Origin: Streptococcus ruminantium
Lineage (GTDB): Bacteria; Bacillota; Bacilli; Lactobacillales; Streptococcaceae
Assembly: GCF_003609975.1 (NCBI RefSeq)
Contig: NZ_AP018400.1
Location: 1,810,501-1,874,500 of the forward strand
Direction of reading: 5' to 3'
Length of the DNA: 64,000 nt
Shown here in pieces: positions 6,737 through 64,000 of this stretch. The position numbers and the translations under genes were made by a program. Below the pieces are notes generated by a model, which saw only the letters and a list, made by a program, of their open reading frames with translations, ran no database searches and was not told the DNA's origin. Position 1 is the first letter of the stretch; each line of letters begins with the position of its first letter.

Positions 6737-6826
6737 TTATTGCAATATGACAGGAGAAATTTTATCTCCAAATAAAACAACATACAGTAGCAATGATAAG
6801 CCATATTTAATCATTATCTTTTTCAT
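6737..6826 (-). CDS. Putative 29-residue secreted signalling peptide (Phr/PapR/SHP-like)
   Basis: A short open frame whose product starts MKKIMIKYG, continues with the hydrophobic stretch LSLLLYVVLFG and ends GDKISPVILQ. This is the layout of small exported pheromone precursors of RNPP regulators: a basic start, a hydrophobic core and a short polar tail. AAGGAGT lies nine bases upstream, inside the end of the preceding open frame, and the start codon overlaps that frame's last codons. That frame looks like the C-terminus of a TPR regulator, the usual arrangement of such pairs. Too short for standard gene finding; function is inference. Confidence 0.4.
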   Translation of the reverse strand: MKKIMIKYGLSLLLYVVLFGDKISPVILQ

Positions 6827-7074: not shown

Positions 7075-7098
7075 AAAAAACGACCCTTTCGAGTCGTT
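7074..7098 (-). terminator. Terminator of the GlsB-like gene
   Basis: Minus-strand AACGACTCGAAAGGGTCGTT followed by a run of seven T. It lies downstream of the 77-residue membrane-protein gene. Confidence 0.85.
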
Positions 7099-7228
7099 TA
7101 CTGGGTGGTTTATTCCACCCATTTTCTATTGATATGCTGACAAATACATCACGAGATTCTCAACAGTCTCTCTGTCTGAAATTGTTTTACTGATACCACT
7201 TACTAAACTAATGGTGCTTTTTCAGCTC

Positions 7229-7462
7229 CTAACTGCTGCGACTTCGACCAAAAATCGCTATCAATAATATGGCGCCAAAAACAGAGGGCACTAAAGCCAT
7301 ACCTGCCAGTTGTGGTCCCCAATAACCAAATAGTAATTGTCCAATCCAAGAGCCCGCCAATCCTAGGATAATATTTCCCAAACAACCTCGGCGGTCACCT
7401 GAGGAAGTAATAGCTCCAGCAATGAGACCAATAATAGCACCTGCGATAATACTTGTAATCAT
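7229..7462 (-). CDS. GlsB/YeaQ/YmgE-family small membrane stress protein
   Basis: A 77-residue, very hydrophobic protein with three predicted membrane segments and the family pattern IIGLIAGAI...GCLGNIILGLAGSWIGQLLFG. Members, also called transglycosylase-associated proteins, are small membrane proteins often induced by stress together with Asp23/Gls24 proteins; their biochemical role is not established. AAAGGAATGG upstream of the ATG supports the start. It stands alone, with its own terminator. Confidence 0.85.
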   Translation of the reverse strand: MITSIIAGAIIGLIAGAITSSGDRRGCLGNIILGLAGSWIGQLLFGYWGPQLAGMALVPSVFGAILLIAIFGRSRSS

Positions 7463-7537
7463 AATATTACCATTCCTTTCATAAAAGATGGCCGCTCCCC
7501 CAGCCTCATACTACTTGCCATAATCTATCCATTTCCC

Positions 7538-8779
7538 TTAGATAGCCCATTCACCATCACGGAAAATTGGTACACGAGTACCGTCTGCACGGATACCATC
7601 AATATTCATCTGATTTGAGCCGATCATAAAGTCCACGTGGACATCTGAGCGGTTGAGTCCTGCTTCTTTCAACTCTTCTTGACTCATTTCTGTACCACCT
7701 TCAATAGAGAAAGCATAAGCAGAGCCGATTGCTAAGTGATTTGAAGCATTTTCATCAAAGAGGGTATTGAAGAAAGTCACGCCTGACTGAGAGATTGGAC
7801 TCTTATCAGGTACAAGAGCTACTTCACCAAGACCACGTGCACCAGCGTTATCAAAAACTAATTTTTTCATGACTTCATCACCTTTTTCAGCCGATACGTC
7901 AACGATTTCACCATCTTTAAAGGTTACCTTAATCCCTTCAATGATATTTCCGTTATAGCTGAGTGGCTTAGTAGAAGTGACATAACCATCCGCTACACGA
8001 TAATCTGGTGCTGTAAAAACTTCTTCTGTCGGCATATTAGCAATAAATTTCTCACCTTGGGCATTGATAGAGCCAGCTGCTTCCCACAAGTGGTTTTTCG
8101 GCATACCTAGGGTCAAATCTGTGCCCGGCGCAGTGTAGTGAAGCTTAACAAACTGCTCGTCGTTGAGGACTTTGGCCTTGGCCACCAAACGTGCCTCATG
8201 TTCTTCCCAAGCCTTGATTGGGTCTTCTTCGTAGATGCGGCATGTCTTGAAGATTTGATCCCAAAGAAGGTCTACAGCTTCCTCATCAGAAGTCGCATTA
8301 GGAAAGACTTTCTTAGCCCATTCCAACCCAGAAGCTGCACCAAGAGTCCAGCTGACTTTATTGGCTTGTGTTGCCTGGCGCATCGGATTGAGGGCTTGAC
8401 TGAGAGCGCGTGCGTTGCGAGATAGTTTTTCTGGTTCAACTCCATCGTAGGCTCCTGGATCATCTGACAAAACAACCAGACGACTAGCCTTACGCTCCAA
8501 GAGGTAGTTCATCTCTGTGATGCGCTGTGGATGTACCTGTTCCAATAATTCCACATCAACATTCACCAACCGTTCACGCGCAATAACATCGTCCTGCCAA
8601 TTGACAAGAACTTCTGCTGCACCGTAGGCATAGGCTTCTTTCACAATTAAACGAGCTAATTCAGCCTGTTCCACACTGATAGTCAATTGAACAGTATGAC
8701 CCGGTTGTACATTGATACCAGTCGATACTAAGAGCTTTGCATATTTTGCTAGATTTTCTTTAAAATGAGGTAATACCAT
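7538..8779 (-). CDS. pepS: Aminopeptidase PepS (M29 family)
   Basis: A 413-residue protein matching M29 metallo-aminopeptidases along its length, from MVLPHFKENLAKYAKLLVST through the central GAASGLEWAKKVFPNAT to the C-terminal metal-binding region (GEVALVPDKSPIS, NASNHLAIGSAYAFSIEGG, HVDFMIGSNQMNIDG). It is expected to be a cytoplasmic dimer removing N-terminal residues from peptides, supporting amino acid supply in lactic streptococci. AAGGAGAATATCATG gives the start. No partner genes are evident. Confidence 0.93.
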   Translation of the reverse strand: MVLPHFKENLAKYAKLLVSTGINVQPGHTVQLTISVEQAELARLIVKEAYAYGAAEVLVNWQDDVIARERLVNVDVELLEQVHPQRITEMNYLLERKASRLVVLSDDPGAYDGVEPEKLSRNARALSQALNPMRQATQANKVSWTLGAASGLEWAKKVFPNATSDEEAVDLLWDQIFKTCRIYEEDPIKAWEEHEARLVAKAKVLNDEQFVKLHYTAPGTDLTLGMPKNHLWEAAGSINAQGEKFIANMPTEEVFTAPDYRVADGYVTSTKPLSYNGNIIEGIKVTFKDGEIVDVSAEKGDEVMKKLVFDNAGARGLGEVALVPDKSPISQSGVTFFNTLFDENASNHLAIGSAYAFSIEGGTEMSQEELKEAGLNRSDVHVDFMIGSNQMNIDGIRADGTRVPIFRDGEWAI

Positions 8780-49904: not shown

Positions 49905-52900
49905 ATGACTAAGTTAAGAAACCTACTTCTAATCTTGCTGGTGTTGTTTGGCGGGATTTTTTCTGTCCAAGCAGCCTCGGCAAAATCTGTTGACATCAAA
50001 GTTGAAAATACAGAATTGACTCCAGAAGTACTTAATGGAGGACTTTCTACGAACTTTTCATTTGATTTTATTGTACCTCGCGAAGCAAGTAAAGGCGATA
50101 CAACAACCATTTCTCTGCCAAACGAATTAAATTTTCAGCGGGATCAAGAATTTGATGTCTATGCTACTAATGGCGGTAACATAGTCGCAAAGGCCAAAAT
50201 TGATACTGCAAATAAAAAATTAACATTGACCTACACAGATTACGTTGACAACCATAGTGACATAGTAGGACATCTCTCGATGAATGTTGTGGTAGATAGG
50301 AAAGTGGTAATAGCCGCAAAAAGCATTTCAGCAGAAATAAAAATAAATGACAATACCACCATCAAGATTGGTAGCGGGAAAATTAACTACACTGGTACAG
50401 AAGGTGATAGAGACGATGTTGATTTTTGGAAATACGGAGTTAGTTCTAGAACCGATGAAATAGTGTATTTAATCAATATCAAACCTTCCAAAACAACTGT
50501 ACACAATGCCATCATTATTGATACACTTAAGTCTCCGGGTCTGCAGTATGTGGAAGGTAGTTTTGAAATCCAAGAGGGAGAGTGGTATAAAAATCATCAA
50601 AATTACTGGACGTTAGGAAAGGCCACTGATGTTACTAGTAAGTATAAAGTTGAGGTTTCTCCTGACAAAACCTCTTTTAGAGTTGAACTTGGAACAGTTG
50701 CTGACAAAGGATACGTAATTAAGTATAGGGTAAAAGCTGATTATTCTCTCGTCAACGGAGAACAGCTTAACAATTTGGCAGAATACTATACTGGAGCAAC
50801 TAAAAAAACTTATGCCAATAACACTCATACATATCAAAGCGCTTCTGGCACAGCTGCTGGCTATAACTATAGCATCACCATCAAAAAAGTAAACGAAGCT
50901 GGAGAAGCTCTTGCAGGGGCTGAGTTTACCGTTACCCGTAAATCAACCGGTCAAGTCATCGGCACATTTACAACCGACTCGGAGGGGAAAATAATTATTG
51001 GTAAGCTTCTAAGAGATGAGTATATCCTTACAGAAACCAAAGCGCCAGCAGGCTATGTGATTGCAGCTCCTGTAGAGAAAATAGCTGATAATTCAGCCAT
51101 AACCATCACAGACAAAAAAGCAAACATTGACATTGAAGGCAAAAAGACCTGGGTGGATAACAACGACCAAGACGGTAAACGTCCGAAATCTATCACTGTA
51201 AACCTCTTGGCGGATGGCAAAGTCGTTCAATCCCAAGAGGTAACAGCAGCTAACAACTGGGAGTATACTTTCACCGACCTACCGAAATACGCTAACGGAA
51301 AAGAAATCGTCTATACTGTGGAAGAGGTGAAGGTAGATGGGTATGAGACGAAGGTGGAAGGAACCAACATCACCAACACCCATACTCCAGAAACAACGCA
51401 AGTTTCAGGTACTAAGACTTGGAACGACAACAACGACCAAGACGGTAAACGTCCGAAATCCATTACCGTAAACCTCTTAGCTGATGGCAAAGTCGTTCAA
51501 TCCCAAGAGGTAACAGCAGCTAACAACTGGGAGTATACTTTCACCGACCTACCGAAGTACGCTAACGGAAAAGAAATCGTCTATACTGTGACAGAAAACG
51601 CTGTTGAAGGCTACACCACAACCTACGATAAGTACAATATCACCAATAGTTACACACCTGGTCAAACTAGCCTCACAGTAACCAAGGCTTGGGATGACAA
51701 GGACAATCAAGACGGTAAACGTCCTGAAGCTATCCAAGTTCAACTCTATGCCAACGGTGAAAAGTTGGGCGAACCTGTAACCCTGACCACTGATAACAAG
51801 TGGACACATACTTGGACAGGACTTGCTAAGAAGGCAAACAAAAAAGACATCGTCTACACCGTCAAAGAAGTCTCAAAAGTAGAGGGATACACCACTACTG
51901 TAGGAACTGTTGAAAATGGAAATGTCACCATTACCAACACCTATAAACCAAGTACAACCTCTATCAAGGTAAACAAGGTCTGGAAAGATAAGGACAACCA
52001 AGATGGTCTGCGCCCAACTTCCATTACCGTCAACCTCTTGGCGGATGGTGAAGTTGTTAAGACGGAAACGATCACACCAAATGCTGATGGCGATTGGAGC
52101 CACACCTTCACAGACTTGCCTGAATACAAAAATGGCAAGAAAATCACTTACACCGTTTCAGAAGAAAAGGTAGAGGGATACGAAACAACGGTAGAAGGAA
52201 CTACCATCACCAACACCCATACTCCAGAAACAACAGAAGTTGCAGGTACCAAGACTTGGAACGATAACAACGACCAAGATGGTAAACGTCCAAAATCCAT
52301 CACCGTAAACCTCTTGGCAGACGGTCAACCGGTCGCAAGCAAAATCGTCACCGCAGACGACAACTGGGCTTACAAGTTCTCAAACCTACCTGCTAAGAAA
52401 AATGGAGCTGCCATTACCTACACGATTAGTGAAAAAGCAGTCGCAGATTACACTACAACCTATGATGGCTACAATATCACTAACAGCTACACACCGGGAG
52501 AAACAAGTGTCACTGCCACAAAAGTTTGGGAAGACAACAACAACCAAGACGGACTGCGCAGGGAAATCAAACTAGAACTCTACGCAGACGGTGTTGCCAC
52601 TGGACAGAGCCAAACCCTTTCTGAAGAGAACAACTGGAAAGCAACCTGGACAGGACTTGCCAAGAAAGCAAACAAAAAGGACATCGTCTACACCGTCAAA
52701 GAAGTCACTGCTATTGATGGCTATACTTCAAAAGTAACTCAAACATCAACCAATAACTTTACCATCACTAACGCCCACACTCCAGAAACAACGCAAGTTT
52801 CAGGTGCTAAGACCTGGAATGACAACAATGACCAAGACGGTAAACGTCCGAAATCTATTACCGTCAACCTCTTGGCTAACGGTGAGGTCGTTCAAAGTCA

Positions 52901-54299
52901 GAAAGTCTCTGCCGATAACAATTGGACCTATACCTTTACTAACCTACCGAAGTACGCTAACGGAAAAGAAATCGTCTACACTGTTTCAGAAGAAAAGGTA
53001 GAGGGATACGAAACAACGGTAGAAGGAACCAATATCACCAATACCCATACTCCAGAAACAACAGAAGTTGCAGGGACTAAGACTTGGAATGACAACAACG
53101 ACCAAGACGGTAAACGTCCGAAATCTATCACCGTAAACCTCTTGGCGGATGGTAAGGTCATCAAGAGCCAACAAGTCACTGCTGAAAACGACTGGAAGTA
53201 TACCTTCACCGACCTACCGAAGTACGCTAACGGAAAAGAAATCGTCTATACTGTTTCAGAAGAAAAAGTAGACGGGTATGAGATGAAGGTGGATGGCTAC
53301 AATATCACAAACAGTTACACACCAAGTACAACCTCTGTCAAGGTAAACAAGGTGTGGAAAGATAAGGACAACCAAGATGGTCTACGCCCAACTTCTATTA
53401 TCGTCAACCTTCTGGCAGATGGTCAGGTAGTTTCTACAACAACCATCAAACCAGATGCCAACGGTGATTGGAACTACACATTCACAGACTTACCTGAATA
53501 CAAAAATGGCAAGAAAATTACCTACACTGTGGAAGAGGCGAACACACCAAACGGGTATACCTCATCTGTAGAAGGAACTACCATCACCAACACCCATACT
53601 CCAGAAACAACGGAAGTTGCAGGGACTAAGACCTGGAACGATAACAACGACCAAGATGGTAAACGTCCGAAATCTATTACCGTAAACCTCTTGGCAGACG
53701 GTGAAGTCGTTCAAAGTCAGAAAGTCTCTGCCGATACGAATTGGACTTATACCTTTACTAACCTACCGAAGTACGCTAACGGGAAGGAAATTATCTACAC
53801 TGTAACTGAGAATGCCGTTGATAACTATACAACAACCATTGATGGTCACAACATTACCAACAGTTACACACCTGGTCAGACGAGTCTCACTGTTACCAAG
53901 GTCTGGAAGGATAACAACAATCAAGACGGTAAACGTCCTGGATCTATCCAAGTTCAACTCTATGCCAACGGTGAAAAGTTGGGCGAACCTGTAACCCTGA
54001 CTGCTGATAACAAGTGGACGCATACTTGGACAGGACTTGACAAGAAAGCAAACCAGAAAGATATTGTCTATACGGTCAAAGAGGTTTCAGTGGTTGATGG
54101 ATACACAGCATCTGTAGGAAAAGTTGAAAATGGAAATGTCACCATTACCAACACCTACAAGCCAACCACTCCTCCTAAGAAGAAAAAATCGACTCCACTG
54201 CCATCAACAGGAAGTCTCAGCGGACTAGGACTGACGTTTGTCGGACTAGCACTTGCCGCGACTATCAGTGTTCGAGCGATTTACCGAAAGAGGAAATAG
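49905..54299 (+). CDS. LPXTG surface protein with eleven Cna-B repeats
   Basis: A 1464-residue wall-anchored adhesin-like protein. It has a signal peptide (about 1-27), a non-repetitive adhesin/Cna-A-like region (about 28-300), one SpaA/Cna-B domain (about 312-400, ITIKKVNEAGEALAGAEF, GYVI), then eleven Cna-B repeats of about 83-90 residues, each starting like TKTWNDNNDQDGKRPKS and ending YxITNxYTP or TITNTHTPETT. The C-terminus has KKKKSTPLPSTG, a hydrophobic helix and YRKRK, the sortase signal. Lys/Asn/Glu placement suits isopeptide bonds. The start has AGGAGGG. It resembles collagen-binding or pilus-like S. suis proteins; the ligand is unknown. Confidence 0.88.
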   Translation: MTKLRNLLLILLVLFGGIFSVQAASAKSVDIKVENTELTPEVLNGGLSTNFSFDFIVPREASKGDTTTISLPNELNFQRDQEFDVYATNGGNIVAKAKIDTANKKLTLTYTDYVDNHSDIVGHLSMNVVVDRKVVIAAKSISAEIKINDNTTIKIGSGKINYTGTEGDRDDVDFWKYGVSSRTDEIVYLINIKPSKTTVHNAIIIDTLKSPGLQYVEGSFEIQEGEWYKNHQNYWTLGKATDVTSKYKVEVSPDKTSFRVELGTVADKGYVIKYRVKADYSLVNGEQLNNLAEYYTGATKKTYANNTHTYQSASGTAAGYNYSITIKKVNEAGEALAGAEFTVTRKSTGQVIGTFTTDSEGKIIIGKLLRDEYILTETKAPAGYVIAAPVEKIADNSAITITDKKANIDIEGKKTWVDNNDQDGKRPKSITVNLLADGKVVQSQEVTAANNWEYTFTDLPKYANGKEIVYTVEEVKVDGYETKVEGTNITNTHTPETTQVSGTKTWNDNNDQDGKRPKSITVNLLADGKVVQSQEVTAANNWEYTFTDLPKYANGKEIVYTVTENAVEGYTTTYDKYNITNSYTPGQTSLTVTKAWDDKDNQDGKRPEAIQVQLYANGEKLGEPVTLTTDNKWTHTWTGLAKKANKKDIVYTVKEVSKVEGYTTTVGTVENGNVTITNTYKPSTTSIKVNKVWKDKDNQDGLRPTSITVNLLADGEVVKTETITPNADGDWSHTFTDLPEYKNGKKITYTVSEEKVEGYETTVEGTTITNTHTPETTEVAGTKTWNDNNDQDGKRPKSITVNLLADGQPVASKIVTADDNWAYKFSNLPAKKNGAAITYTISEKAVADYTTTYDGYNITNSYTPGETSVTATKVWEDNNNQDGLRREIKLELYADGVATGQSQTLSEENNWKATWTGLAKKANKKDIVYTVKEVTAIDGYTSKVTQTSTNNFTITNAHTPETTQVSGAKTWNDNNDQDGKRPKSITVNLLANGEVVQSQKVSADNNWTYTFTNLPKYANGKEIVYTVSEEKVEGYETTVEGTNITNTHTPETTEVAGTKTWNDNNDQDGKRPKSITVNLLADGKVIKSQQVTAENDWKYTFTDLPKYANGKEIVYTVSEEKVDGYEMKVDGYNITNSYTPSTTSVKVNKVWKDKDNQDGLRPTSIIVNLLADGQVVSTTTIKPDANGDWNYTFTDLPEYKNGKKITYTVEEANTPNGYTSSVEGTTITNTHTPETTEVAGTKTWNDNNDQDGKRPKSITVNLLADGEVVQSQKVSADTNWTYTFTNLPKYANGKEIIYTVTENAVDNYTTTIDGHNITNSYTPGQTSLTVTKVWKDNNNQDGKRPGSIQVQLYANGEKLGEPVTLTADNKWTHTWTGLDKKANQKDIVYTVKEVSVVDGYTASVGKVENGNVTITNTYKPTTPPKKKKSTPLPSTGSLSGLGLTFVGLALAATISVRAIYRKRK
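51123..54167 (+). repeat. Tandem DNA repeat encoding the Cna-B array
   Basis: Eleven units of roughly 250-275 bases. The segment from GACAACAACGACCAAGACGG onward and the TACGCTAACGGAAAAGAAAT block recur almost unchanged. Units alternate between two types, TKTWNDNNDQDGKRPKS and KVWKDKDNQDGLRPTS, so copy number may vary by recombination. Confidence 0.85.
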
Positions 54300-54354
54300 G
54301 CATGACAGACCCACAGAATGAGTAAAGATAAACATATATTTACTCACAATAAGA

Positions 54355-54386
54355 AACAACGGCTTTTGATACCGTTGTTTTTTTTA
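54355..54386 (+). terminator. Terminator of the Cna-B protein gene
   Basis: AACAACGG...CCGTTGTT followed by TTTTTTT. Confidence 0.9.
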
Positions 54387-54502: not shown

Positions 54503-54697
54503 TTAAAATGAATCCTTCCTCTTACGAAACAAATAGCATATAAAATAGAGAACATATAGCAAATCTAGTAAAAATAGACAAGCAAGTAACCCAAATTGTC
54601 ACCACGACTCAACTTTTACAGCTAAAAATATGATGGAAAGCGGCTGTATTGTAAAAATAAACTTGGAAATCTTTTCAAATTTTTCTTTTGTAAACAT
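54503..54697 (-). pseudogene. Small membrane protein (putative immunity), interrupted by TGA
   Basis: The frame reads MFTKEKFEKISKFIFTIQP..., like the 62-residue protein at 63376-63564, with two hydrophobic segments and a basic end FRKRK. A TGA at 54599-54601 replaces one of the two tryptophans in the paralogue's VESWW. It lies after the 359-residue partner at the downstream end of the array. Confidence 0.6.
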
Positions 54698-54746
54698 TTT
54701 TTGTACCCCATGTCTTGTCCAACTATGGTTGACAAGAAGTCTGTTT

Positions 54747-55826
54747 TTACTTTTCAGTATACAATTTTATAATTTGCTGATCTATATCCATAGAAAAGAT
54801 ATAGGGTCTATTCATTTGGAAAAACCTGCCATCAATCGGAGGAGTGATGCGGCAATCCAAACAATCTATAAACTCCGAAATATCGCTTCTTAATTTAGAT
54901 ACTGTTTTCCTGGACATACCATTTGCAATCTGTTCGAATACCAATTCTTGAATGGTACTTACTAAAAATGTTTTTGATAGATAAATCAAATTCTCGTTCT
55001 GCAACCATATTCCCATCAGACCAATTTTATAAATTACATACTTCAAACGGATAAAATAGCCTACTCCTTCCTCATACTGATGCCGAACAAGCCGAGCTAA
55101 AACATCAGCCATTGCTTCAACTTGTATCTTTCTATCCTTCTTCAATAAATGTAAATTACACAGATTTTCCAACACCATTAAAAGAAGCCGATTACTCGTA
55201 TCGTCACCTTTATTGGCAAAATATGAATAAAAATGTTCCGGAGAATGTATCTTTAAATAGGATTTTGACAGTAGGATTTCTTCAAATTCTTCACTCCCCT
55301 CCAGAAGCCGATTACCAATCCATCCTTGTTCTTTCCCCAAAAATGAACTGGTTAATAACAAGACATACAAAGAAAGGTAAGACACTGGTGCAAGTCCGAT
55401 AGATTTTGGTAGGAGATAATATACTACTAGAAAAGCAAGAACCACACTTACTTCTCTTGATATTTGCATTTTCCTTAACTTTTTTCCTAAGACTTGCCAT
55501 GTGGTCCCTGAATAATAATCCTGCTCAAGGTTTACATACAGAACATCCATTATCATTTCTGGAAAGTAGAGGAGATTCAACGGTTGAAATTTCCATTGGC
55601 CATCATAAGAAAAAGGATAGAGGATAAAATAACGAATATAGCATACATTACTCAGTTTGATATAAGTGATTTGTATAAAGAATGATAAGAGGTAAAGAGT
55701 GTACACAATCAGGAGTGCAAGAAATACTCCCTTAAAAGTTCCGATAGAATTTGCTAACGGGACATAAAATAAAAAGATAAAAAAGAAATACTGAATCAAT
55801 AAGATTAATTTAAAAAAACGTTCCAT
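54747..55826 (-). CDS. Array partner membrane protein of bacteriocin G (putative immunity/accessory)
   Basis: A 359-residue protein with about two N-terminal hydrophobic segments, an internal pair near 125-165 (VVLAFLVVYYLL, YLSLYVLLLTSSFLG) and a soluble C-terminal half of about 190 residues rich in helices. It starts six bases after the stop of the 107-residue precursor, so it is translated with it. No known family recognised. It shares length and layout with the 292- and 314-residue proteins of the array but little sequence. Immunity is inferred from position only. Confidence 0.5.
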   Translation of the reverse strand: MERFFKLILLIQYFFFIFLFYVPLANSIGTFKGVFLALLIVYTLYLLSFFIQITYIKLSNVCYIRYFILYPFSYDGQWKFQPLNLLYFPEMIMDVLYVNLEQDYYSGTTWQVLGKKLRKMQISREVSVVLAFLVVYYLLPKSIGLAPVSYLSLYVLLLTSSFLGKEQGWIGNRLLEGSEEFEEILLSKSYLKIHSPEHFYSYFANKGDDTSNRLLLMVLENLCNLHLLKKDRKIQVEAMADVLARLVRHQYEEGVGYFIRLKYVIYKIGLMGIWLQNENLIYLSKTFLVSTIQELVFEQIANGMSRKTVSKLRSDISEFIDCLDCRITPPIDGRFFQMNRPYIFSMDIDQQIIKLYTEK

Positions 55827-55832
55827 AAACTT

Positions 55833-56156
55833 CTAATAAAAGACCCTATTATGCCATAAATGATGAACTGCTGCAGCAGCGCCCAAGCCAGCCAAACCAA
55901 TAATAATTGGATTTCCTGTTAGAGCTGATAGCTTGGTGATAACTCCTGGAAAATAAGCCATAGCTGTCCAATATCCCCATTTTGCCATAGTAATTGTAGA
56001 TGGGAGACCAGCTGCAATACGATTGGCCATACTTAGACCTGTCTTATGAATCAAACCTTGAATATTTTTAATAAGGTTTTGAGGACTTCCCCCATCAAGG
56101 TACATCATTTCCTCTTCTTCAAGAGCGACATAGTTATTTGGTAATACAAGTTCCAT
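55833..56156 (-). CDS. Bacteriocin-like precursor G with shared double-glycine leader
   Basis: A 107-residue precursor. The leader runs MELVLPNNYVAL through acidic residues to MMYLDGG (23 residues), identical to those of precursors C, D and F. The 84-residue core begins SPQNLIKNIQGL, is rich in Gly/Ala and hydrophobic residues (IIIGLAGLGAAAA) and ends LWHNRVFY. This fits a class II-type bacteriocin exported by a peptidase-domain ABC transporter that cuts after GG; cores are longer than most. GGAGAAAAACTCATG gives the start. The upstream palindrome 56184-56203 is shared with the others. Confidence 0.7.
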   Translation of the reverse strand: MELVLPNNYVALEEEEMMYLDGGSPQNLIKNIQGLIHKTGLSMANRIAAGLPSTITMAKWGYWTAMAYFPGVITKLSALTGNPIIIGLAGLGAAAAVHHLWHNRVFY

Positions 56157-56271
56157 GAGTTTTTCTCCTTTATTTTTACGTGGTTAGAAAGGATTTTCTA
56201 ACAAGGTATAGACAACTGTTTATCATTCTCCAGCTCAACAACAGAGCACCCTTTCTCCACTCTGGTTGGAG
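56157..56271 (-). repeat. Conserved upstream region of precursor G (copy 1)
   Basis: The roughly 115 bases before precursor G are almost identical to those before precursor C (61132-61246). They include the palindrome GTTAGAAA-ATCC-TTTCTAAC (56184-56203) close to the binding site. Precursors D and F keep only the first 50-60 bases. Confidence 0.75.
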
Positions 56272-56323
56272 TTACCTGCCCCTATACCTCCCCATCTTGT
56301 AAGCCTTAAATATCTTTATGATC

Positions 56324-57202
56324 TCACTCTATCAGACTTATCAGTTCTGAAACCAAACCCAGTCCCCACGAAACTTTAGCTTTCTTAATTCCTGAAAATA
56401 CTAAATCTGCATCTGCTAACAAGATAGCTTCAGCAGGATGACCTCTCAAGAAATTCACTATTTCATTAAAATATTTTTGAGCAACCAGTACATTCTTTAT
56501 CCTATTTTTTTGTAGCAAAAAGAAAAGTATATTTAGTTGTTCATACTCTCTCAGTTTTCGAATCTTTTCCAAAGGAAATAATTCCTCACTATTTTTGTAC
56601 AGTGTTGCATAACAAAGAATGATATTATAATCATACTCTTTTGGATGTATGTCCCATAGCCCATCCCCATCTCTTCCTTCTGCTACATCTGCTAAAATAG
56701 CACATTTAGAATAATAAGCATCCAGACCTGATTTTGCATAATAACCATTCGCAACCAAAATACTTACGCCCCATGCTAAAAGCGTCAACAAATAGTAGCT
56801 TTTCAGTAGGAAAAATATCCCCCAAAGTACAACCCAGAATGAAAAAAAGATTGTAAAATACAAAGTGAAAAAAGCTCTACGCTTTTGAGAAGGAATGAGG
56901 AAGAAAATCGGTGGCATAAATCCAAAAAAACCTTCAGTAATGCGACAAAACTTCTCTTTTCCGTTAAAATACAATTTAGGATAAAGATAGTAGGCGATAC
57001 ATTTTAAACTTAAAAATTTACCAGCGATCCATTTACAGACAAATTGATAGCTCTGTGCTAAGAAAAGACCAGCAGGAGCACTTATAAGAAAGATTATTAC
57101 TTTATGAAATAATTCAAAAATTGTCCTAGCTGTCATGAGAAACGGACATAAAGTAGCAAACACTAAGATAGCAAACAGCAAATAAATAGAAATTTTTCTC
57201 AT
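56324..57202 (-). CDS. Array partner membrane protein of bacteriocin F (putative immunity/accessory)
   Basis: A 292-residue protein from MRKISIYLLFAILVF, chosen because AAGGGGGAATTATG precedes it. The N-terminal half has about four membrane segments with a Tyr-rich loop (IAYYLYPKLYFNGKEKFCR); the C-terminal half (from about 165) is soluble, with helices and DADLVF. It lies after precursor F with a 58-base gap. Layout is like the 314-residue protein at 61537. No family recognised. Confidence 0.5.
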   Translation of the reverse strand: MRKISIYLLFAILVFATLCPFLMTARTIFELFHKVIIFLISAPAGLFLAQSYQFVCKWIAGKFLSLKCIAYYLYPKLYFNGKEKFCRITEGFFGFMPPIFFLIPSQKRRAFFTLYFTIFFSFWVVLWGIFFLLKSYYLLTLLAWGVSILVANGYYAKSGLDAYYSKCAILADVAEGRDGDGLWDIHPKEYDYNIILCYATLYKNSEELFPLEKIRKLREYEQLNILFFLLQKNRIKNVLVAQKYFNEIVNFLRGHPAEAILLADADLVFSGIKKAKVSWGLGLVSELISLIE

Positions 57203-57260
57203 AATTCCCCCTTTTTTCAAACTGCTCTTCCTTACAAACACAAGGAAGAGCAGTTGAAGC

Positions 57261-57572
57261 CTAGTAGAACAATCTTACATTATATAATGTCAGACCTACT
57301 GCACCAACTATCCCTACTCCTAGCAAGCCAGCAACCGCAATCACCTTTCCGGAAAGCATACCAACCTTAGCTAAAAGAATGGTCTTGTTTGCCCAAACAG
57401 CCTTACCCGCAGACGATAACAGCCCCACTTCGCGCATGGCAAACCGTAACCCCTCTGAACGCTTGGAAAGTCCTTCAATGTTCCTTCTAAAATTATTCCA
57501 ATCTCCCCCATCAAGGTACATCATTTCCTCTTCTTCAAGAGCGACATAGTTATTTGGTAATACAAGTTCCAT
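57261..57572 (-). CDS. Bacteriocin-like precursor F with shared double-glycine leader
   Basis: A 103-residue precursor with the same 23-residue leader ending MMYLDGG. The 80-residue core starts DWNNFRRNIEGLSKRSEG, then turns hydrophobic (VIAVAGLLGVGIVGAVGL) and ends LYNVRLFY, a C-terminus shared in style with cores G and B (xRVFY/RLFY). Leader DNA is identical to that of G and C. The binding site is GGAGAAAAACTCATG. Confidence 0.7.
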   Translation of the reverse strand: MELVLPNNYVALEEEEMMYLDGGDWNNFRRNIEGLSKRSEGLRFAMREVGLLSSAGKAVWANKTILLAKVGMLSGKVIAVAGLLGVGIVGAVGLTLYNVRLFY

Positions 57573-57684
57573 GAGTTTTTCTCCTTTATTTTTACGTGGT
57601 TAGAAAGGATTTCCGTAACATTCTCTTACAACAGATTCGTTAGTGTTATCTGAATCGCTATTCAAATGGCAAAAATAGATATTC

Positions 57685-58326
57685 TCACAAGAATTTAACC
57701 GTTATCCACGGAATCAAAGTAATTAACATACTAGAAATGATTGGGATAACTTGGGTGCTAAGCGTCAAAAAATAAATTAAACGGAAACTCTTTAACTCTG
57801 CCAGGCTGATACTGCCGATAGACTTGATATACCTAAGTGAAGCGTTAGAAGCACGGATTTCGATATACATTTTTAGGAACAAAACAATCAGCAATAACAG
57901 AATATCCATACGTACAGCCATAGTAAAAAAATAATCCATATTTTCTAATAGTACTCTCGAAAGAACCAAGATTTTCAACATAGGACTAACAAAGTACAAG
58001 ATGGCAAATGAAATAGATTGAATGATTAGTACTCGTTTTCTATCCAGTGAGTGATATAGCTCATGTATGAATGCAAACGTGCCATAGAAAGAAAATTCAT
58101 GGTCCTTTACGAAGATAACCTCATTTAAAATGGGTCTATATAAAAATTCTTTCCCTTCCTCCATAGTGGATAGAGGGTTAATGGATTCTTTCAGGTCTAA
58201 ATAAGTCCTATCAGCACCAAAATAAATTTTTGAGTACATTAAAACCCTTTTATATATCAATTGATGAGCGACAGTTAGTAACAAAATTAAAAGAAATAAG
58301 GAAAACGGAAATAAAAGAATAGTCAT
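57685..58326 (-). CDS. Membrane HExxH metalloprotease-like protein, array partner
   Basis: About 213 residues from MTILLFPFSLFLLILLLT (AAGGAG five bases upstream; an in-frame GTG lies two codons earlier). It has an N-terminal membrane helix, then FAFIHELYHSLDRKR with HELYH as a zinc site, further hydrophobic segments, and IEIRASNASLRYI, where the Glu could be the third zinc ligand as in YugP-type (Zn_peptidase_2) enzymes. It pairs with the 218-residue protein just upstream. A processing or immunity function is inferred. Confidence 0.6.
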   Translation of the reverse strand: MTILLFPFSLFLLILLLTVAHQLIYKRVLMYSKIYFGADRTYLDLKESINPLSTMEEGKEFLYRPILNEVIFVKDHEFSFYGTFAFIHELYHSLDRKRVLIIQSISFAILYFVSPMLKILVLSRVLLENMDYFFTMAVRMDILLLLIVLFLKMYIEIRASNASLRYIKSIGSISLAELKSFRLIYFLTLSTQVIPIISSMLITLIPWITVKFL

Positions 58327-58472
58327 AGGCACTCCTTAATTACCATCGCTTCTAAGCTCAGTCTACAAATCAATCTCCATCTTGGAGTATTTATAACTTC
58401 TTATAATAAACTTATCAGTTCCAAGTCTTTCCCACTCCTCACGAAACATTGGCTTTCCTAAGTTTCATTGAT

Positions 58473-59129
58473 TCATAACATGTAAAATAAAAGCATTGAT
58501 AATATAAGGTAAATGATAAACTGAAAAAAATAGCTGAGTAGGGCATGAAAGGAGATGCGTCCTACTAGGTTTGTTTGGTCTATATAATTATTATTCTTTA
58601 AGAAAGAAATGGCTTCATTGGACGCGTATGATTCGATAATAAGTGTAAAAATCAAGCAAACCAGAAGCATAATCATATCAATAGTCACCAACAACCTCAA
58701 AACCGGATAAGATGTTCCAAACCATATTGAATATAAGGTTACAACCTTCAGTAGCGTTGATAAAAGATAGGTATAAACAGATACAACTGTTTGTACTTTT
58801 AACACCCTATTCCTATCTTTAAAATGATAAAGTTCATGTAAAAAAGCCAGTGCATCTACTAAAGCATTCGTTTTTAGATTTTTTACTCCTATCGTGTTTG
58901 TCAATGGACGAAACCAGAAGGAATCTGAATAAACAATTAGAGGTTTATCCAATCCTTCTGTCTCACAAAATTGTTGGAAAATGATGTCCAAATCGTTACT
59001 TATTCTTATTTTTTTTCGACTGTATCTATTTAAACAATTTTTATTTACCCAAATAAACACAAGAGTTATGATAAGAAAAGTAAGAAGAATAACATTCATC
59101 AACGCTGCATCATTACTTAATAATTTCAT
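58473..59129 (-). CDS. Membrane HExxH metalloprotease-like protein, array partner of core E
   Basis: A 218-residue protein with an N-terminal membrane helix, ALAFLHELYHFKDRNRV (HELYH zinc motif), three or four further hydrophobic segments and IESYASNEAISFLK, matching the E-x-x-A-S-N pattern of its 213-residue neighbour. Its start overlaps the stop of leaderless core E (TAATG), so it was translated together with that core. Its C-terminal half is nearly identical to the gene entering at 63648. Immunity or maturation by proteolysis is inferred. Confidence 0.6.
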   Translation of the reverse strand: MKLLSNDAALMNVILLTFLIITLVFIWVNKNCLNRYSRKKIRISNDLDIIFQQFCETEGLDKPLIVYSDSFWFRPLTNTIGVKNLKTNALVDALAFLHELYHFKDRNRVLKVQTVVSVYTYLLSTLLKVVTLYSIWFGTSYPVLRLLVTIDMIMLLVCLIFTLIIESYASNEAISFLKNNNYIDQTNLVGRISFHALLSYFFQFIIYLILSMLLFYML

Positions 59130-59371
59130 TACCAGAATTTATAATGTTTGCCTGTTAAATATACAGCTGTAGCTACAACTGCTATTGCTCCACCTGGGTT
59201 AAGCCATGCTGATATTACTAAAGCATTGATAGTGTTCGCAACCCAACCTCCAGCCAATCGTATTGCTGCGCCAACCAGACTGTGTTTTACACCATGCCCA
59301 ACAATAGCTCCGACAGCTCCAGCAACTACAGCGATAGCAGCATCTCTAATCCAATCTCCCCCATCAAGGCA
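59129..59371 (-). pseudogene. Leaderless bacteriocin core E
   Basis: An open frame behind the sequence encoding CLDGG: DWIRDAAIAVVAGAVGAIVG, then HGVKHSLVGAAIRLAGGWV and so on to YLTGKHYKFW (about 79 residues), Gly/Ala-rich and hydrophobic like the other cores. The leader, promoter and start codon are missing: 13 bases before GATGGGGGA is the stop codon of the 243-residue partner D. The join falls at TTGATGGGGGA. It may be a silent cassette or a deletion relic. Confidence 0.6.
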
Positions 59372-59383
59372 GGTTCCTATTTT

Positions 59384-60115
59384 CTAAGAAGGAACTGGTA
59401 TATTGGATTTTTCATATTCTTTCTGTCGTAAAAAGGGAACCACGAAATTTGAAAATAGTGAGAGACTGATAAACCACCATATCTCTTTGAAAATCAATAA
59501 TAAAACCAGCAAAACAAGCACTAGCATAAATTCTATGATTAGTAATTTCTTTAAGTAACCAAGCAATTGTTTATCTGCAAAATATAGCTTGATCAGCAAA
59601 TCAGCTCTGATAATTCTAAAAAGAATATTTAAAAACGCTAATGCAATTATAATATAGGATAAGCCATTCCTATAAAACAATAGAGGCAAAAATACTGTTG
59701 TATAGCTCAAATAATTGATCAATTTAAAATAGTCACTGGTATCTAGCTTTGAATGGAATTGTTCCACCCGTTGATATTCTTTTAAGAAATCACCATGGTC
59801 TCTGAGAGTTAGAAACAATACGATTTGAATACCACCAATTAGACAACTACCTAGCAGAATAATCTGCTTGTTTATCGTAATCAGGCTAATGTTTAGAGAT
59901 ACTAGTATTAGCACTATCGAATTGACAGAGAGCATACTTCTTATCAAAATATTTTTTATCCTAAATAACGGCAGATTGAATAAAATATAAATCAGTGTTA
60001 AAAGCGAAAGAATGACAGAGAGAACATCGGTGAAAGAGGAAGATTGGTTCAGTATCAGCAGGATGATAAACAAGATTATTGTCGGGCAATATTTGATACT
60101 ATTCATATTTTTCAT
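59384..60115 (-). CDS. Array partner membrane protein of bacteriocin D (putative immunity)
   Basis: A 243-residue polytopic protein from MKNMNSIKYCPTIILFIILL; its ATG overlaps the TGA of precursor D by four bases. About seven hydrophobic helices, with a hydrophilic central loop (RDHGDFLKEYQRVEQFHSKL) and a C-terminus KEYEKSNIPVPS. No catalytic motif. Tight coupling and strong hydrophobicity suit a dedicated immunity protein. Not similar to other partners here. Confidence 0.55.
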   Translation of the reverse strand: MKNMNSIKYCPTIILFIILLILNQSSSFTDVLSVILSLLTLIYILFNLPLFRIKNILIRSMLSVNSIVLILVSLNISLITINKQIILLGSCLIGGIQIVLFLTLRDHGDFLKEYQRVEQFHSKLDTSDYFKLINYLSYTTVFLPLLFYRNGLSYIIIALAFLNILFRIIRADLLIKLYFADKQLLGYLKKLLIIEFMLVLVLLVLLLIFKEIWWFISLSLFSNFVVPFLRQKEYEKSNIPVPS

Positions 60116-60465
60116 CTCACCGTTGCAGATATAAAGCCGTCCCATGGATAGGGATTTCCAGTAATATCACAACCTCTATTTATTGCACCATAACCAATAC
60201 AATAAGCAACTCTAGATATAGCGCCCGCCAAAACACCTGCTGCCGCTCCAACTAGCCAACCTCCCAAGCCTCCAACCTTAATAAAATTGGTTAATTTTTT
60301 TGCTACAACTGCCGTAGCAGCCAATGCTATAAACGTTCCTGGACTCATAGCCAAAGCTGCACAAATAAGCTGACAGTCTTTTCGGGAAAAATATACTCCC
60401 CCATCAAGATACATCATTTCCTCTTCTTCAAGAGCGACATAGTTGTTTGGTAATACAAGTTCCAT
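60112..60465 (-). CDS. Bacteriocin-like precursor D with shared double-glycine leader
   Basis: A 117-residue precursor with the same leader amino acids; its leader DNA differs from the others at two synonymous positions. The 94-residue core begins VYFSRKDCQLICAALAMSPG and has four cysteines (CQLIC, AYCIG, GCDITG), so disulphide bonds are possible, plus Gly-rich hydrophobic blocks (GGLGGWLVGAAAGVLAGA). It ends DGFISATVR. The stop overlaps the start of partner D. Confidence 0.7.
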   Translation of the reverse strand: MELVLPNNYVALEEEEMMYLDGGVYFSRKDCQLICAALAMSPGTFIALAATAVVAKKLTNFIKVGGLGGWLVGAAAGVLAGAISRVAYCIGYGAINRGCDITGNPYPWDGFISATVR

Positions 60466-60565
60466 GAGTTTTCTCCTTTATTTTAGTGTGGTTAGAAAGG
60501 ATTTTCTAACAAGATCGTGACAACTTAGTTTATATCTTCGTAGCTGCCTAGATAGGACAGTCTTG

Positions 60566-60751
60566 CTAAGGTTTATAAAAAATTTTTATTAAAAATAACG
60601 ATCCCAATATTACAATCACTCCACTTAAAAAAAAATGTAATTCCATTCCCCTATATTTTTCAATATAGGGAATGACATACATGCTAAGCAATACAAGTAT
60701 TACTCCAGCAAGAGCTAGGATAATTAATAGTGTATTTGCCATCTTAATCAT
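60566..60751 (-). CDS. Small membrane protein, partner of bacteriocin C (putative immunity)
   Basis: A 61-residue protein with two membrane helices (TLLIILALAGVILVLLSMYV, FFLSGVIVILGSLFLIKIFY) and a charged loop EKYRGMELH. The start overlaps the precursor C stop (ATGA). It is similar in size and layout to the 60-residue partner of core A at 62816, whose core is also homologous to C. That pairing supports a core-specific immunity function. Confidence 0.6.
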   Translation of the reverse strand: MIKMANTLLIILALAGVILVLLSMYVIPYIEKYRGMELHFFLSGVIVILGSLFLIKIFYKP

Positions 60752-61131
60752 ATAATATCACACCATTCATTATTGGGATGTCTATCCCCTGAATCCCAAA
60801 GTTTCGCCAACATTCCACCGACACTCAGGCCTCCAGTTTCTAAGATAAAACCAACAACTATTCCAGATATTCTATTGGCAGCTTGGACGCCCAAAAAATT
60901 TATCAAGGCTCCTTTTAACCGTCTAGTAAATGTTTGTCGACCAACAGCTTTTATCGCAGCTTTAAATAAAGCAAATCCTCCTCCACCACCCATAAAATAT
61001 GCAATTACAGTGTTAACTGCGGAATTGACACCAAAAGCTACAACGCTGTTATGTATAGATAATCCCCCATCAAGGTACATCATTTCCTCTTCTTCAAGAG
61101 CGACATAGTTATTTGGTAATACAAGTTCCAT
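60748..61131 (-). CDS. Bacteriocin-like precursor C with shared double-glycine leader
   Basis: A 127-residue precursor with the shared 23-residue leader. The 104-residue core starts LSIHNSVVAFGVNSAVNTVI, contains GGGGGFALFKAA and ends NNEWCDII. It is clearly homologous to core A (63003-63341), for example NSVVAFG, GGGGG, and NNxWCDI. One Cys only. It is coupled to the 61-residue partner. Confidence 0.7.
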   Translation of the reverse strand: MELVLPNNYVALEEEEMMYLDGGLSIHNSVVAFGVNSAVNTVIAYFMGGGGGFALFKAAIKAVGRQTFTRRLKGALINFLGVQAANRISGIVVGFILETGGLSVGGMLAKLWDSGDRHPNNEWCDII

Positions 61132-61246
61132 GAGTTTTTCTCCTTTATTTTTATGTGGTTAGAAATGATTTTCTGAAAAGGTATAGACAACTGTTTATCA
61201 TTCTCCAGCTCAACAACAGAGCAGCCTTTCTCCACTCTGGTTGGAT
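61132..61246 (-). repeat. Conserved upstream region of precursor C (copy 2)
   Basis: Nearly identical to 56157-56271 before precursor G. Here the palindrome is degenerate (GTTAGAAATGATTTTCTGAA on the plus strand, from 61158). Confidence 0.75.
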
Positions 61247-61275
61247 TTATCTTGCATAGAGTGTTAAAACCTTCA

Positions 61276-61516
61276 TTATTTGAAACTCAACAGTTCCAAT
61301 ATCCAATCAAGATAGGTCTCTTGATTGTAGACAATACGCGCCTCTACTGGCATATCTTTTTGCAATACAATGACCTCTTTTCCTTTCTTCAAGGTCAAAC
61401 TTTCTAGCTCAATAACGACCTTATAAAGACTGATATTGCCATTCTTTGTTTCTCTAGTGACAGTCCCTGAATATACATGTATTCACTTGTCTATCTTAGG
61501 AGTTTTACTAACTTGA
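61276..61516 (-). pseudogene. C-terminal fragment of an HlyD-family bacteriocin export protein
   Basis: The minus-strand frame reads IHVYSGTVTRETKNGNI, then LKKGKEVIVLQKDMPVEARI and VYNQETYLDWILELLSFK. The MPVEARIVYNQETYLDWIL end is typical of membrane-fusion accessory proteins of bacteriocin ABC exporters. A TGA stands just before IHVYSG, and an upstream TGA closes the frame, so only about 80 codons survive. The rest of the gene and its transporter are not in the window. Confidence 0.6.
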
Positions 61517-61536
61517 GTAGTGACTCACAATATCGG

Positions 61537-62481
61537 TTATGATTTAAATATATCAATAAAAAATTGAATTTCAGATATAGCAAGTGATAACGATAATTGT
61601 TGTTGACCATTTAAAGCACTATAGATTCCCTTCTTAACTAATAAAAAGTTTGGCTTATCATCTATGAGTTGACTCAGCATATTCTTGTATCTTATATTCC
61701 AACAACTCCTATATAAATATAGATTTAACTTGATAACGTCTAACATACCATATAACCCCATCTGATACATCCTATCATCTAGACGTTTATCTTCTATCTC
61801 TTCAACTTTTCGGCACTCTTCCTCAGATAAATATTCTTTTATCAAACTAATATAAGATAGGGCAATAAATGGAAGTTCTGATGTTGATTTTAGTTGCCAT
61901 ATTGCTTTGTAATCTTCAACCGAAAAACGACTATTAGTCTTACTTTCCAAGATTGTCAACACCTGGGATTTCAGTAGTAATAATTGTTGATGCTCAACTT
62001 CGTATAGTTTTTGTATAATTGCAATTACCATGGAAAACGGAACTACTGGCAACCACAAGGGATTACGATAAATACTATTAAAGATAAAATAGTAGCCTAT
62101 CAACGATAGGAAATACAACAAATAGTAAATAATAAAGAATGATTGGTAAGATTTATCTCCTTTATATCGGATCCCAATGGAAGGAGTAAATCCTATAATT
62201 TGATTAAAAAAGGCTCTGATATATACACCCGACCCCAATTTAGCAACTACACCAAGATGAAAATAAACGAGTTGTATCTTGCAAAAAATAGCAGAAGCGA
62301 ACAAAAGAGTTGTATGTAAAAGCTGAGAAATAATGTAATATATGGGTGTAACAAAAATAAATGTGATAATCGCTTTAAGAGGGTCACTAGTTAAATTCAT
62401 GTGGATAAATGCTGGAGCAACACAGAAAAAACTAGACACCAAAACCAGTAAAAACATTATCAAAGTCTTATTCTTTTTCAT
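61537..62481 (-). CDS. Array partner membrane protein of core B (putative immunity/accessory)
   Basis: A 314-residue protein with AAGGGGATAATCTATG. N-terminal membrane or signal segment, then paired hydrophobic segments (FVTPIYYIISQLLHTTLLFA, FFIIYYLLYFLSLIGYYFIF) and a soluble helical C-terminal half (from about 170). Layout is like the 292- and 359-residue partners. It lies 100 bases after the leaderless core B. Function unknown. Confidence 0.5.
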   Translation of the reverse strand: MKKNKTLIMFLLVLVSSFFCVAPAFIHMNLTSDPLKAIITFIFVTPIYYIISQLLHTTLLFASAIFCKIQLVYFHLGVVAKLGSGVYIRAFFNQIIGFTPSIGIRYKGDKSYQSFFIIYYLLYFLSLIGYYFIFNSIYRNPLWLPVVPFSMVIAIIQKLYEVEHQQLLLLKSQVLTILESKTNSRFSVEDYKAIWQLKSTSELPFIALSYISLIKEYLSEEECRKVEEIEDKRLDDRMYQMGLYGMLDVIKLNLYLYRSCWNIRYKNMLSQLIDDKPNFLLVKKGIYSALNGQQQLSLSLAISEIQFFIDIFKS

Positions 62482-62579
62482 AGATTATCCCCTTCATACG
62501 ACTCAAAAAATATACAGTGAATGTACCTATTGCTCAACAACTGGGCATTTCAGATACATTCACTTTTTAAAGTTTCACA

Positions 62580-62690
62580 CTAATAGAATAGTCTCATTTG
62601 CCATAATGCTGCACCTGCACCATATGAAGCACCTCCAACCGCAATTGTCAACTTGATAATCGCAGCAATTGAAATTGGTTCTCCCCCATC
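62580..62690 (-). pseudogene. Leaderless bacteriocin core B
   Basis: The frame behind YNFDGG reads EPISIAAIIKLTIAVGG then ASYGAGAALWQMRLFY and stops. The end RLFY matches cores F and G. Only about 33 residues are present, shorter than its relatives, so this may be a deleted core. Upstream of the TTTGATGGGGGAG join is the out-of-frame beginning of another membrane protein. Confidence 0.55.
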
Positions 62691-62761
62691 AAAGTTATAC
62701 TAGTTATGATTAAACACAAAAATACAACTATAATAGCTAGTATTTTAATATTCTTTATCAT
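62691..62761 (-). pseudogene. N-terminal stub of a small membrane protein, fused to core B by a join
   Basis: ATG at 62761, then MIKNIKILAIIVVFLCLIIT, followed at once by the join at TTGATGGGGGA and core B in another frame. It looks like the start of a partner gene cut by recombination. Confidence 0.4.
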
Positions 62762-62815
62762 GTTTGGTAACTATTTTAAGCACGAATGTTGAAATTTGTT
62801 ACTAACTAATGTAAG

Positions 62816-62998
62816 TCACTTCTTTATCAAAAACCATATTAACACTAAAATACCTATCCCTAAAAAAAATGAAATGTTTGATAACAAATCTGACAGACTT
62901 TTATCTTTTACGTTTGGAAATACATACTGCCCTAACAATACTAAGACTATACCAAAAACTAAAAAGAAAAATTTTATATAAAAAGCTTTATTATCCAT
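62816..62998 (-). CDS. Small membrane protein, partner of core A (putative immunity)
   Basis: A 60-residue protein starting MDNKAFYIKFFFLVFGIVLV, 4 bases after core A. Two membrane helices and a charged loop (NVKDKSLSDLL). Paralogous in layout to the 61-residue partner of C. Longer in-frame sequence upstream overlaps the core and is not a plausible start. Confidence 0.55.
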   Translation of the reverse strand: MDNKAFYIKFFFLVFGIVLVLLGQYVFPNVKDKSLSDLLSNISFFLGIGILVLIWFLIKK

Positions 62999-63002
62999 AA
63001 AA

Positions 63003-63341
63003 TTAAATATCACACCATCCATTATTTCTATTTTTATCTCTGCTATCCCACCATCTAGCTGCAAAATCTCCGATACTCCAGCCACCAAATCCCGTTACTA
63101 ATCCAATTATAGTACCAGCCATTCGATTCGCTAACTGAATAGCTATAAATCTTCCTAAATGATGGGCAAAAGTTTGGGTGATTCTTCTTGCACCTAAAGA
63201 ACTAATAAGCCCTTTCAGTACAGCTAACCCACCACCTCCTCCTGTAAGTGCTGCAATTGTTCCATTTATCCCAGCATTAATTCCAAATGCTACCACTGAG
63301 TTAGGAACAGCCAAATTCCATCCCCCATCAAGATACATCAC
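63003..63341 (-). pseudogene. Bacteriocin core A with truncated leader
   Basis: Only MYLDGG of the leader remains before a 105-residue core starting WNLAVPNSVVAFGINAGING, homologous to core C through GGGGGLAVLKG and NNGWCDI. Upstream is unrelated sequence without a ribosome binding site, so the frame probably cannot yield an exportable precursor. The join lies within GATGTATCTTGATGGGGGA. Confidence 0.6.
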
Positions 63342-63375
63342 AACACTCAGGAACTAGTATCTTCTCCACTATTAA

Positions 63376-63564
63376 CTAACTTCTCCTTTTACGAAAGGAA
63401 TAAGTAAGAAAATAAATAACGTATAACAAATCTAATAAAAATAAACAAGAGAATAGTCCAAAAGACCACCACGATTCCACTCTTATAAAAAAATACAAGA
63501 TAGAAATAGGTTGTATTGCAAAAATTAACTTAGAAACCTTTTCAAATTTTTCTTTTGTAAACAT
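63376..63564 (-). CDS. Small membrane protein (putative immunity), intact copy
   Basis: A 62-residue protein starting MFTKEKFEKVSKLIFAIQPI with two hydrophobic segments and a basic end RKRRS. Its paralogue at 54503-54697 has a stop codon. Located before core A, so its cognate core is either A or a lost one. Function inferred from place and size. Confidence 0.5.
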   Translation of the reverse strand: MFTKEKFEKVSKLIFAIQPISILYFFIRVESWWSFGLFSCLFLLDLLYVIYFLTYSFRKRRS

Positions 63565-63647
63565 TTTATTTTTACCTTATTTCTTATCTTAACTATAGTT
63601 AACAAAAAAATCTATTTCTACCCTTTATTGTTTGAAACTGCATTCAT

Positions 63648-64000
63648 TTATAGCATATGGAACAGAAGCATTGACAATATAAGGTAAATGATAAACTGAA
63701 AAAAATAGCTGAGTAGGGCATGAAAGGAGATGCGTCCTACTAGGTTTGTTTGGTCTATATAATTATTATTCTTTAAGAAAGAAATGGCTTCATTGGACGC
63801 GTATGATTCGATAATAAGTGTAAAAATCAAGCAAACCAGAAGCATAATCATATCAATAGTCACCAACAACCTCAAAACCGGATAAGATGTTCCAAACCAT
63901 ATTGAATATAAGGTTACAACCTTCAGTAGCGTTGATAAAAGATAGGTATAAACAGATACAACTGTTTGTACTTTTAACACCCTATTCCTATCTTTAAAAT
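63648..64000 (-). CDS. Partial HExxH metalloprotease-like protein (runs off the window)
   Basis: The C-terminal 117 codons of a gene almost identical to that at 58473-59129: VVSVYTYLLSTLLKVVTLYS through IESYASNEAISFLK to LLFHML. The HELYH part lies beyond the right edge. DNA from 63665 to 64000 matches 58490-58825 with hardly any difference, implying recent duplication. Confidence 0.75.
   Translation of the reverse strand, partial: FKDRNRVLKVQTVVSVYTYLLSTLLKVVTLYSIWFGTSYPVLRLLVTIDMIMLLVCLIFTLIIESYASNEAISFLKNNNYIDQTNLVGRISFHALLSYFFQFIIYLILSMLLFHML

Follow-up and report, generated by a model that had tools for sequence, protein, structure and literature searches.

The Blp pneumocin region joins a shared double-glycine (GG) leader to varied small hydrophobic cores, with adjacent immunity genes and export by a peptidase-containing ATP-binding cassette (ABC) transporter (PCAT). 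The pneumococcal rtg locus, according to passages of PMC7018657, includes a GyrI-like protein, RtgX, and a peptide, RtgG, whose signal comprises P-18 plus Y, L, M and L at -15, -12, -7 and -4, with residues -22 to -18 directing export via RtgAB. The authors of that work could not assign a role to the rtg peptides and speculate that they are bacteriocins. Here we describe an array of GG-leader cassettes in Streptococcus ruminantium, located in a 64,000-nucleotide window (contig NZ_AP018400.1; G000:C1:1810501-1874500, G000 being the source genome) and in an overlapping stretch, L007, that reaches upstream of the window. In our view, the array is likely to be an export locus of the rtg type, controlled by a PlcR-like regulator and exporting bacteriocin-like cores with matching immunity partners.

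A preliminary description of the window, made from the sequence, had noted four precursors (at 55833, 57261, 60112 and 60748) with one 23-residue leader, MELVLPNNYVALEEEEMMYLDGG, and our analysis bears this out. Three of them have the same leader DNA; that of the fourth differs at two of 69 bases, leaving the protein unchanged. Across the genome, six sites match the leader DNA with E values no higher than 5.9e-23, and five of these sites have two or fewer mismatches, which is beyond chance. At all five positions of the published RtgG signal (P-18, Y-15, L-12, M-7 and L-4), the leader of the array carries the same residue.

The array lies on the minus strand, and its cassettes extend about 2.6 kb beyond the window as far as exporter genes in L007. 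These encode a 739-aa ABC transporter with a C39 peptidase, a 155-aa protein and a 470-aa HlyD-type protein. The upstream part of L007 also holds a 289-aa regulator, a 17-pair terminator-like hairpin and a sigma-70-like promoter site matching at 12 of 12 positions. The genes for the regulator and the three exporter proteins are all open. Against TIGR01193 (peptide cleavage/export ABC), the transporter scores 561.6, above the cut-off of 523.85. It is 79.5-80% identical to that of G219, a genome in which an open reading frame (ORF) between regulator and transporter (L029) ends in AIIFPWGWPI, the sequence given for the RtgS type A pheromone in a review (PMC13361665). The HlyD-type protein contains an HlyD_3 domain above cut-off and is 67-69% identical to its counterparts in G014, G109, G233 and G219. 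The 155-aa ORF, which is conserved and lies between the two transport genes, has no Pfam or NCBIfam match; it may correspond to rtgX, to judge by the equal frequencies in Table 2 of PMC7018657.

The regulator matches PlcR over residues 6-248 (E=2.7e-9) and gave no match to the RGG_Cterm model; the G219 regulator matches the Rgg C-terminal model weakly (E=0.012, below cut-off). No WxW pheromone ORF of 14-60 aa lies between the regulator and transporter of the array. Small ORFs near the transporter were sought in seven of the nine genomes that bear it (G109 and G233 were left out), and in G251, G255 and G256 the interval from regulator to transporter contains hydrophobic ones, which may encode Phr/PapR-like peptides. 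Because the regulator of the array is PlcR-like, in place of an Rgg regulator with a WxW pheromone, we rejected strict membership of rtg. Nor did we uphold the earlier suggestion of a candidate new bacteriocin class, and a class without ties to known systems was rejected, since leader and transporter match rtg as described in passages of PMC7018657 and one core family already carries the NCBI name SPH_0224.

Behind the near-fixed leader, the cores are mostly unrelated, as the preliminary description had said. Only one of the six pairs of window cores, 55833/57261, exceeds the cut of z 5 (z 8.8, 100 shuffles); 60112/57261 follows at z 3.8 and the remaining pairs lie below z 2. The two related cores share an R-V/L-FY terminus, and each has a large membrane protein as its partner. 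Thirteen cores examined show a grand average of hydropathy of 0.27-0.93, 24-39% Gly+Ala and a charge of 0 to +7, mostly positive, a composition as expected for membrane-active peptides. Precursor D (Table 1) is 41-44% identical over most of its length to S. pneumoniae proteins named 'SPH_0224 family bacteriocin-like peptide' (among the best 120 of 346 matches). Bacteriocin_IIc (PF10439) reached 14.3 and 14.6 bits in two of seven precursors tested, below its threshold of 27.1, and was not listed for the other five.

Each precursor is followed by a different membrane protein gene with overlapping start and stop codons or a short gap, again in keeping with the initial account, and these partners form several families of 54-359 aa. 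Core families were assigned by one of us from sequence similarity, before the permutation test of partner similarity. Across 24 cassettes, partner similarity tracks core family, the observed mean being reached in 0 of 20000 permutations. A separate comparison of core and partner identities between genomes omits the shortened core of G268, the broken DWNNF core of G158 and the window remnant at 62580-62693. For the 314-aa partner, a predicted structure (pLDDT 74) yielded no useful fold match, and the idea that it is a degenerate site-2 protease, formed by eye, was dropped with no result to support it. A PADLOC scan of 10 proteins for anti-phage defence gave no match.

Comparison between genomes, with gene lists drawn from a simple ORF selection, showed that related genomes differ in the cassettes they carry at this place. 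In six of 11 genome comparisons (G014/G109, G014/G219, G014/G233, G251/G256, G251/G255 and G256/G255; the remaining five show greater divergence or rearrangement), blocks of 4.3-8.9 kb with 94.6-98.3% identity extend across the transport genes, stopping between -4 and +7 bases from a leader end, beyond which the cores are unrelated. These alignments show a conserved place occupied by different cassettes. Leaders of unrelated cores in one genome are a median of 3.5 of 69 bases apart (range 0-10; 26 pairs, 15 from G000), versus 9 of 69 (range 0-18; 42 pairs) for leaders of the same core family across genomes, with overlapping ranges; by this measure, leader similarity goes more with genome and position than with the core. 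In G255 and G256, a core 98% identical and a partner 95% identical occupy the first and second position, respectively, behind leaders 7 bases apart.

A remnant of an HlyD-type gene inside the array, together with the intergenic and leader DNA that follows it, matches the end of the true HlyD gene at about 95% identity across 426 bp, and G221 also carries a 3' HlyD piece in its array. Because the HlyD 3' piece and leader recur within the array, the repeat points to block recombination at the transporter end. Three cores retain only the final 4-6 leader residues; in the search for such leaderless cores, three chance matches were discarded (one in G000, within the DNA of another core, one in G014 and one in G268). 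Rhs systems provide a precedent in their displaced toxin tips. We did not uphold displacement as the sole route here, because in G221 the leader was damaged in place through an out-of-frame deletion and short deletions could also explain the loss of leaders in the window. The preliminary description had missed the HlyD remnant, the three leaderless cores and the upstream continuation of the array.

Between most partners and the next leader lies an inverted repeat, GTTAG...CTAAC, with lineage-specific inner bases, about 15-50 bases upstream of most leaders (for example, L007:13145-13202). Aligned as a hairpin in 22 of 30 elements, 94.7% of cells pair, compared with at most 57.6% in slid versions, figures that lean to a hairpin because three elements without the repeat (G158c, G221b and G155) and five near-duplicates were omitted (the damaged G000D was kept). 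Two-sided change occurs in only one of six pairs, and an Rfam scan of L007 returned no match.

Among 284 Streptococcus species genomes searched with the leader, 99 had a match at E <= 10 and 15 were kept at E <= 3e-8, with 29 sites between them; an earlier search with an exact DNA pattern for the leader end had found 12. A transporter at least 79% identical to that of the array is present in nine of the 15. The 155-aa protein occurs in six of 395 genomes of the order, two of them with internal stops. In G569, from another family of the order, one leader with the same five residues precedes a lysine-rich core of about 45 residues, adjoined by a C39-type transporter and an HlyD-like gene (by eye) and accompanied by a 155-aa homologue (31% identical, internal stop); the locus seems to be a compact relative whose peptide is an ordinary cationic one. 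Erysipelothrix inopinata (L010:9971-13773) encodes homologues of the transporter (49% identical), 155-aa protein (36%) and HlyD-type protein (33%), and no such leader was noticed among its ORFs of at least 60 aa. In two other species, the DNA ahead of the rtg-type peptides (L026 1037-4122 and L023 4121-7143, oriented coordinates) encodes, judged by eye, a peptide resembling lactococcin 972 together with a large membrane protein and an ABC ATPase, as if the site gathered bacteriocin loci.

In total the array holds six leader-bearing precursors and three cores without a leader. Two cassettes lie upstream in L007: A, with a 104-aa core and a 246-aa partner, and B, with NGE replacing DGG in its leader and a partner bearing HELYH. 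Between them are insertion sequence (IS) fragments, transposase pieces by eye (L007:11207-11858). The features within the window are collected in Table 1. The partner at 58473..59129 has a 99.5% identical copy encoded upstream, partly outside the window, and a DNA segment at 63384-63567 recurs at 54517-54700 with 78% identity.

Table 1. Array features within the window, in order of transcription (TM, transmembrane)
Feature	Positions	Strand	Description
Partner of cassette B, 3' part	63648..64000	-	HELYH partner; continues in L007:10148-10804
Small ORF	63376..63564	-	62 aa; membrane-like by eye; no core identified
Leaderless core	63003..63338	-	MYLDGG remaining; 44% identical to core D
Partner of 63003..63338 core	62816..62998	-	60 aa; 36% identical to 61-aa partner
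Leaderless core remnant	62580..62693	-	Short; EP-type start, ...MRLFY end
Partner	61537..62481	-	314-aa membrane protein; DWNNF-type partner family
HlyD-type gene remnant	61276..61480	-	3' part, within array
Precursor D	60748..61131	-	Consensus leader; 104-aa core, SPH_0224 family
Partner of D	60566..60751	-	61 aa; 2 predicted TM helices; overlaps core stop
Precursor E	60112..60465	-	Leader with 2 silent differences; 94-aa core
Partner of E	59384..60115	-	About 243 aa; multi-TM
Leaderless core	59129..59368	-	LDGG remaining; family of cassette B core
HELYH partner	58473..59129	-	HELYH + Glu166; membrane metallopeptidase-like
Second HELYH partner	57685..58332	-	26% identical; no core
Precursor F	57261..57572	-	Leader; 80-aa core, DWNNF family
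Partner of F	56324..57205	-	About 293-aa membrane protein
Precursor G	55833..56156	-	Leader; 84-aa core with NRVFY end
Partner of G	54747..55826	-	359-aa membrane protein
Terminator-like hairpin	54354..54380	-	Array end; = L007:854-880

Adjoining the array, at window 49905-54299, is the gene for a 1464-aa surface protein in which repeats of a Cna_B-like unit and a sorting signal can be made out by eye; in G255 and G251, the array adjoins the rluD-like gene. The flanking genes match by eye those of L009, titled S. suis YS56. Among the open-licence papers listed, no title describes such an array in S. suis, and passages of PMC9067509 name other bacteriocins. The same genome has a second GG-peptide locus, L036 (G000:C1:47500-56500; ORFs 3375-4992 and 5975-8149), with several peptides of 51-64 aa behind other leaders (..EGG end), neighbours of 57-61 aa and a C39 ABC transporter that shares 36% identity with the one in the array.

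From PCAT biology and the work on rtg, we infer how the array would operate. A peptide-sensing regulator probably switches on one long transcript covering the transporter, the 155-aa and HlyD-type accessories and the row of cassettes. The C39 peptidase of the transporter would recognise each leader and cut after GG, releasing a hydrophobic, mostly cationic core of 71-105 residues. The cores would most likely hit the membranes of competing streptococci, like class II bacteriocins, while the membrane protein encoded behind each core would shield the producer. Homologous recombination in the leader and its flanks may put new core and partner cassettes behind the resident leader, a route suggested because the leader and upstream DNA are conserved while the cores are not; unwanted cores would persist without leaders. 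We regard as possible, though doubtful, a more far-reaching version: a polymorphic system in which the 23-residue leader and upstream repeat serve as a fixed docking arm for cassettes moving between positions and species, with several new bacteriocin families of 71-105 residues and at least one immunity family that is a membrane metallopeptidase destroying its cognate toxin.

Several observations weigh against our main reading. Because the rtg authors could not determine what their peptides do, we propose bacteriocin activity rather than assert it, and the passages of PMC7018657 available to us report no killing by these peptides. No Pfam or NCBIfam family above cut-off covers the precursors tested. 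The other six leader-bearing genomes, several of them drafts, have 35-36% identical transporter paralogues or nothing at threshold. The six block comparisons are not independent, and their breakpoints are no proof of a dedicated mechanism, because homology must stop where cores are unrelated. The lowest partner similarity within a core family (0.02) falls below the highest between families (0.19), which means that some of the pairings are based not on similarity but on position and size. Simple immunity also sits poorly with the VYFS family, in which cores of G000 and G014/G109/G158 are 74-82% identical and partners 26-27%, and with the GVG family, in which cores of G014 and G158 are 51% identical and partners 99% (99.6% in DNA over 231 bases). 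Finally, terminator-like sites in L007 number 10 versus 9.8 in shuffles, and promoter-like sites 82 versus 66.3 (sd 7.7), near chance overall. The modular arsenal of the preliminary description holds for an export tag with varied cores, family-specific membrane proteins and an adjacent PCAT gene; toxicity and immunity stand as proposed roles.

Instead of toxins, the cores might be secreted effectors or community factors involved in signalling, autolysis or colonisation, with the partners as receptors or regulators. Cores of this length are unusual among class II bacteriocins, which would suit such a role. So would the unassigned function of the rtg peptides in PMC7018657 and the gonococcal GG peptides reported in PMC11798529 to mediate autolysis without killing competitor species. 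However, different cores behind a near-fixed leader in close relatives, and partner genes retained in genomes that yielded no such transporter, fit toxin and immunity better than signalling, and we think this alternative unlikely. Distinctly unlikely, in our estimate, is that the array is largely a relic of duplication and decay with few functional products. Three of its nine cores are leaderless, one leader ends in NGE, and IS fragments and the HlyD remnant interrupt it, but the transport genes and regulator are open, five consensus leaders are intact and the full promoter-like consensus stands ahead of the operon.

The partners could also be maturation or delivery factors rather than immunity proteins, and the HELYH family may process peptides: HELYH and Glu166, a gluzincin-type HExxH with a downstream Glu, are invariant in five of five aligned members, including a 26% identical paralogue, and three of the five match Zn_peptidase_2 (PF04298) weakly (21.2 bits for the HELYH partner, below the gathering cut-off of 27). 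Processing is, however, expected from the C39 domain, and a common processing factor would be shared, whereas the partners go with core families and vary widely in type and size. We judge this explanation very improbable.

Read as an rtg-type bacteriocin locus, the array adds a larger set of cassettes to a type of locus that has been studied little in pneumococcus. Related streptococci carry different cassettes after a common leader, and exporters that are close relatives come under either an Rgg-type or a PlcR-type peptide-sensing regulator. About 10 core families with their partners become available for killing and immunity tests, together with a natural collection of loci that are nearly the same apart from their cassettes.

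Like the Blp region, the array has a shared GG leader, varied hydrophobic cores, neighbouring immunity-type genes and PCAT export, but its cores are longer. Other C39 transporters in these genomes are only 35-37% identical to that of the array, and passages of PMC7018657 describe RtgAB and ComAB/BlpAB leader motifs as different, with inefficient cross-export. Polymorphic toxins (PMC3482391) likewise combine a constant trafficking part with an exchangeable toxin part and stand-alone cassettes; in the array, by contrast, the constant part is a 23-residue leader only and the cores look membrane-active. The rtg locus differs in its Rgg regulator RtgR with a WxW pheromone, where the array has a PlcR-like one, and in its place on the chromosome (the array, by eye, has purR-like and rluD-like genes as neighbours). 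It also differs in scale, with eight putative GG peptides across all 318 pneumococcal loci surveyed in PMC7018657 versus nine cores in this one array. Set against these differences are the C39 ABC transporter, HlyD-type accessory and five leader residues common to both systems, the strong strain-to-strain variation reported for pneumococcal rtg in the same source, and the SPH_0224 core family and 314-aa partner family, both of which have members named from S. pneumoniae.

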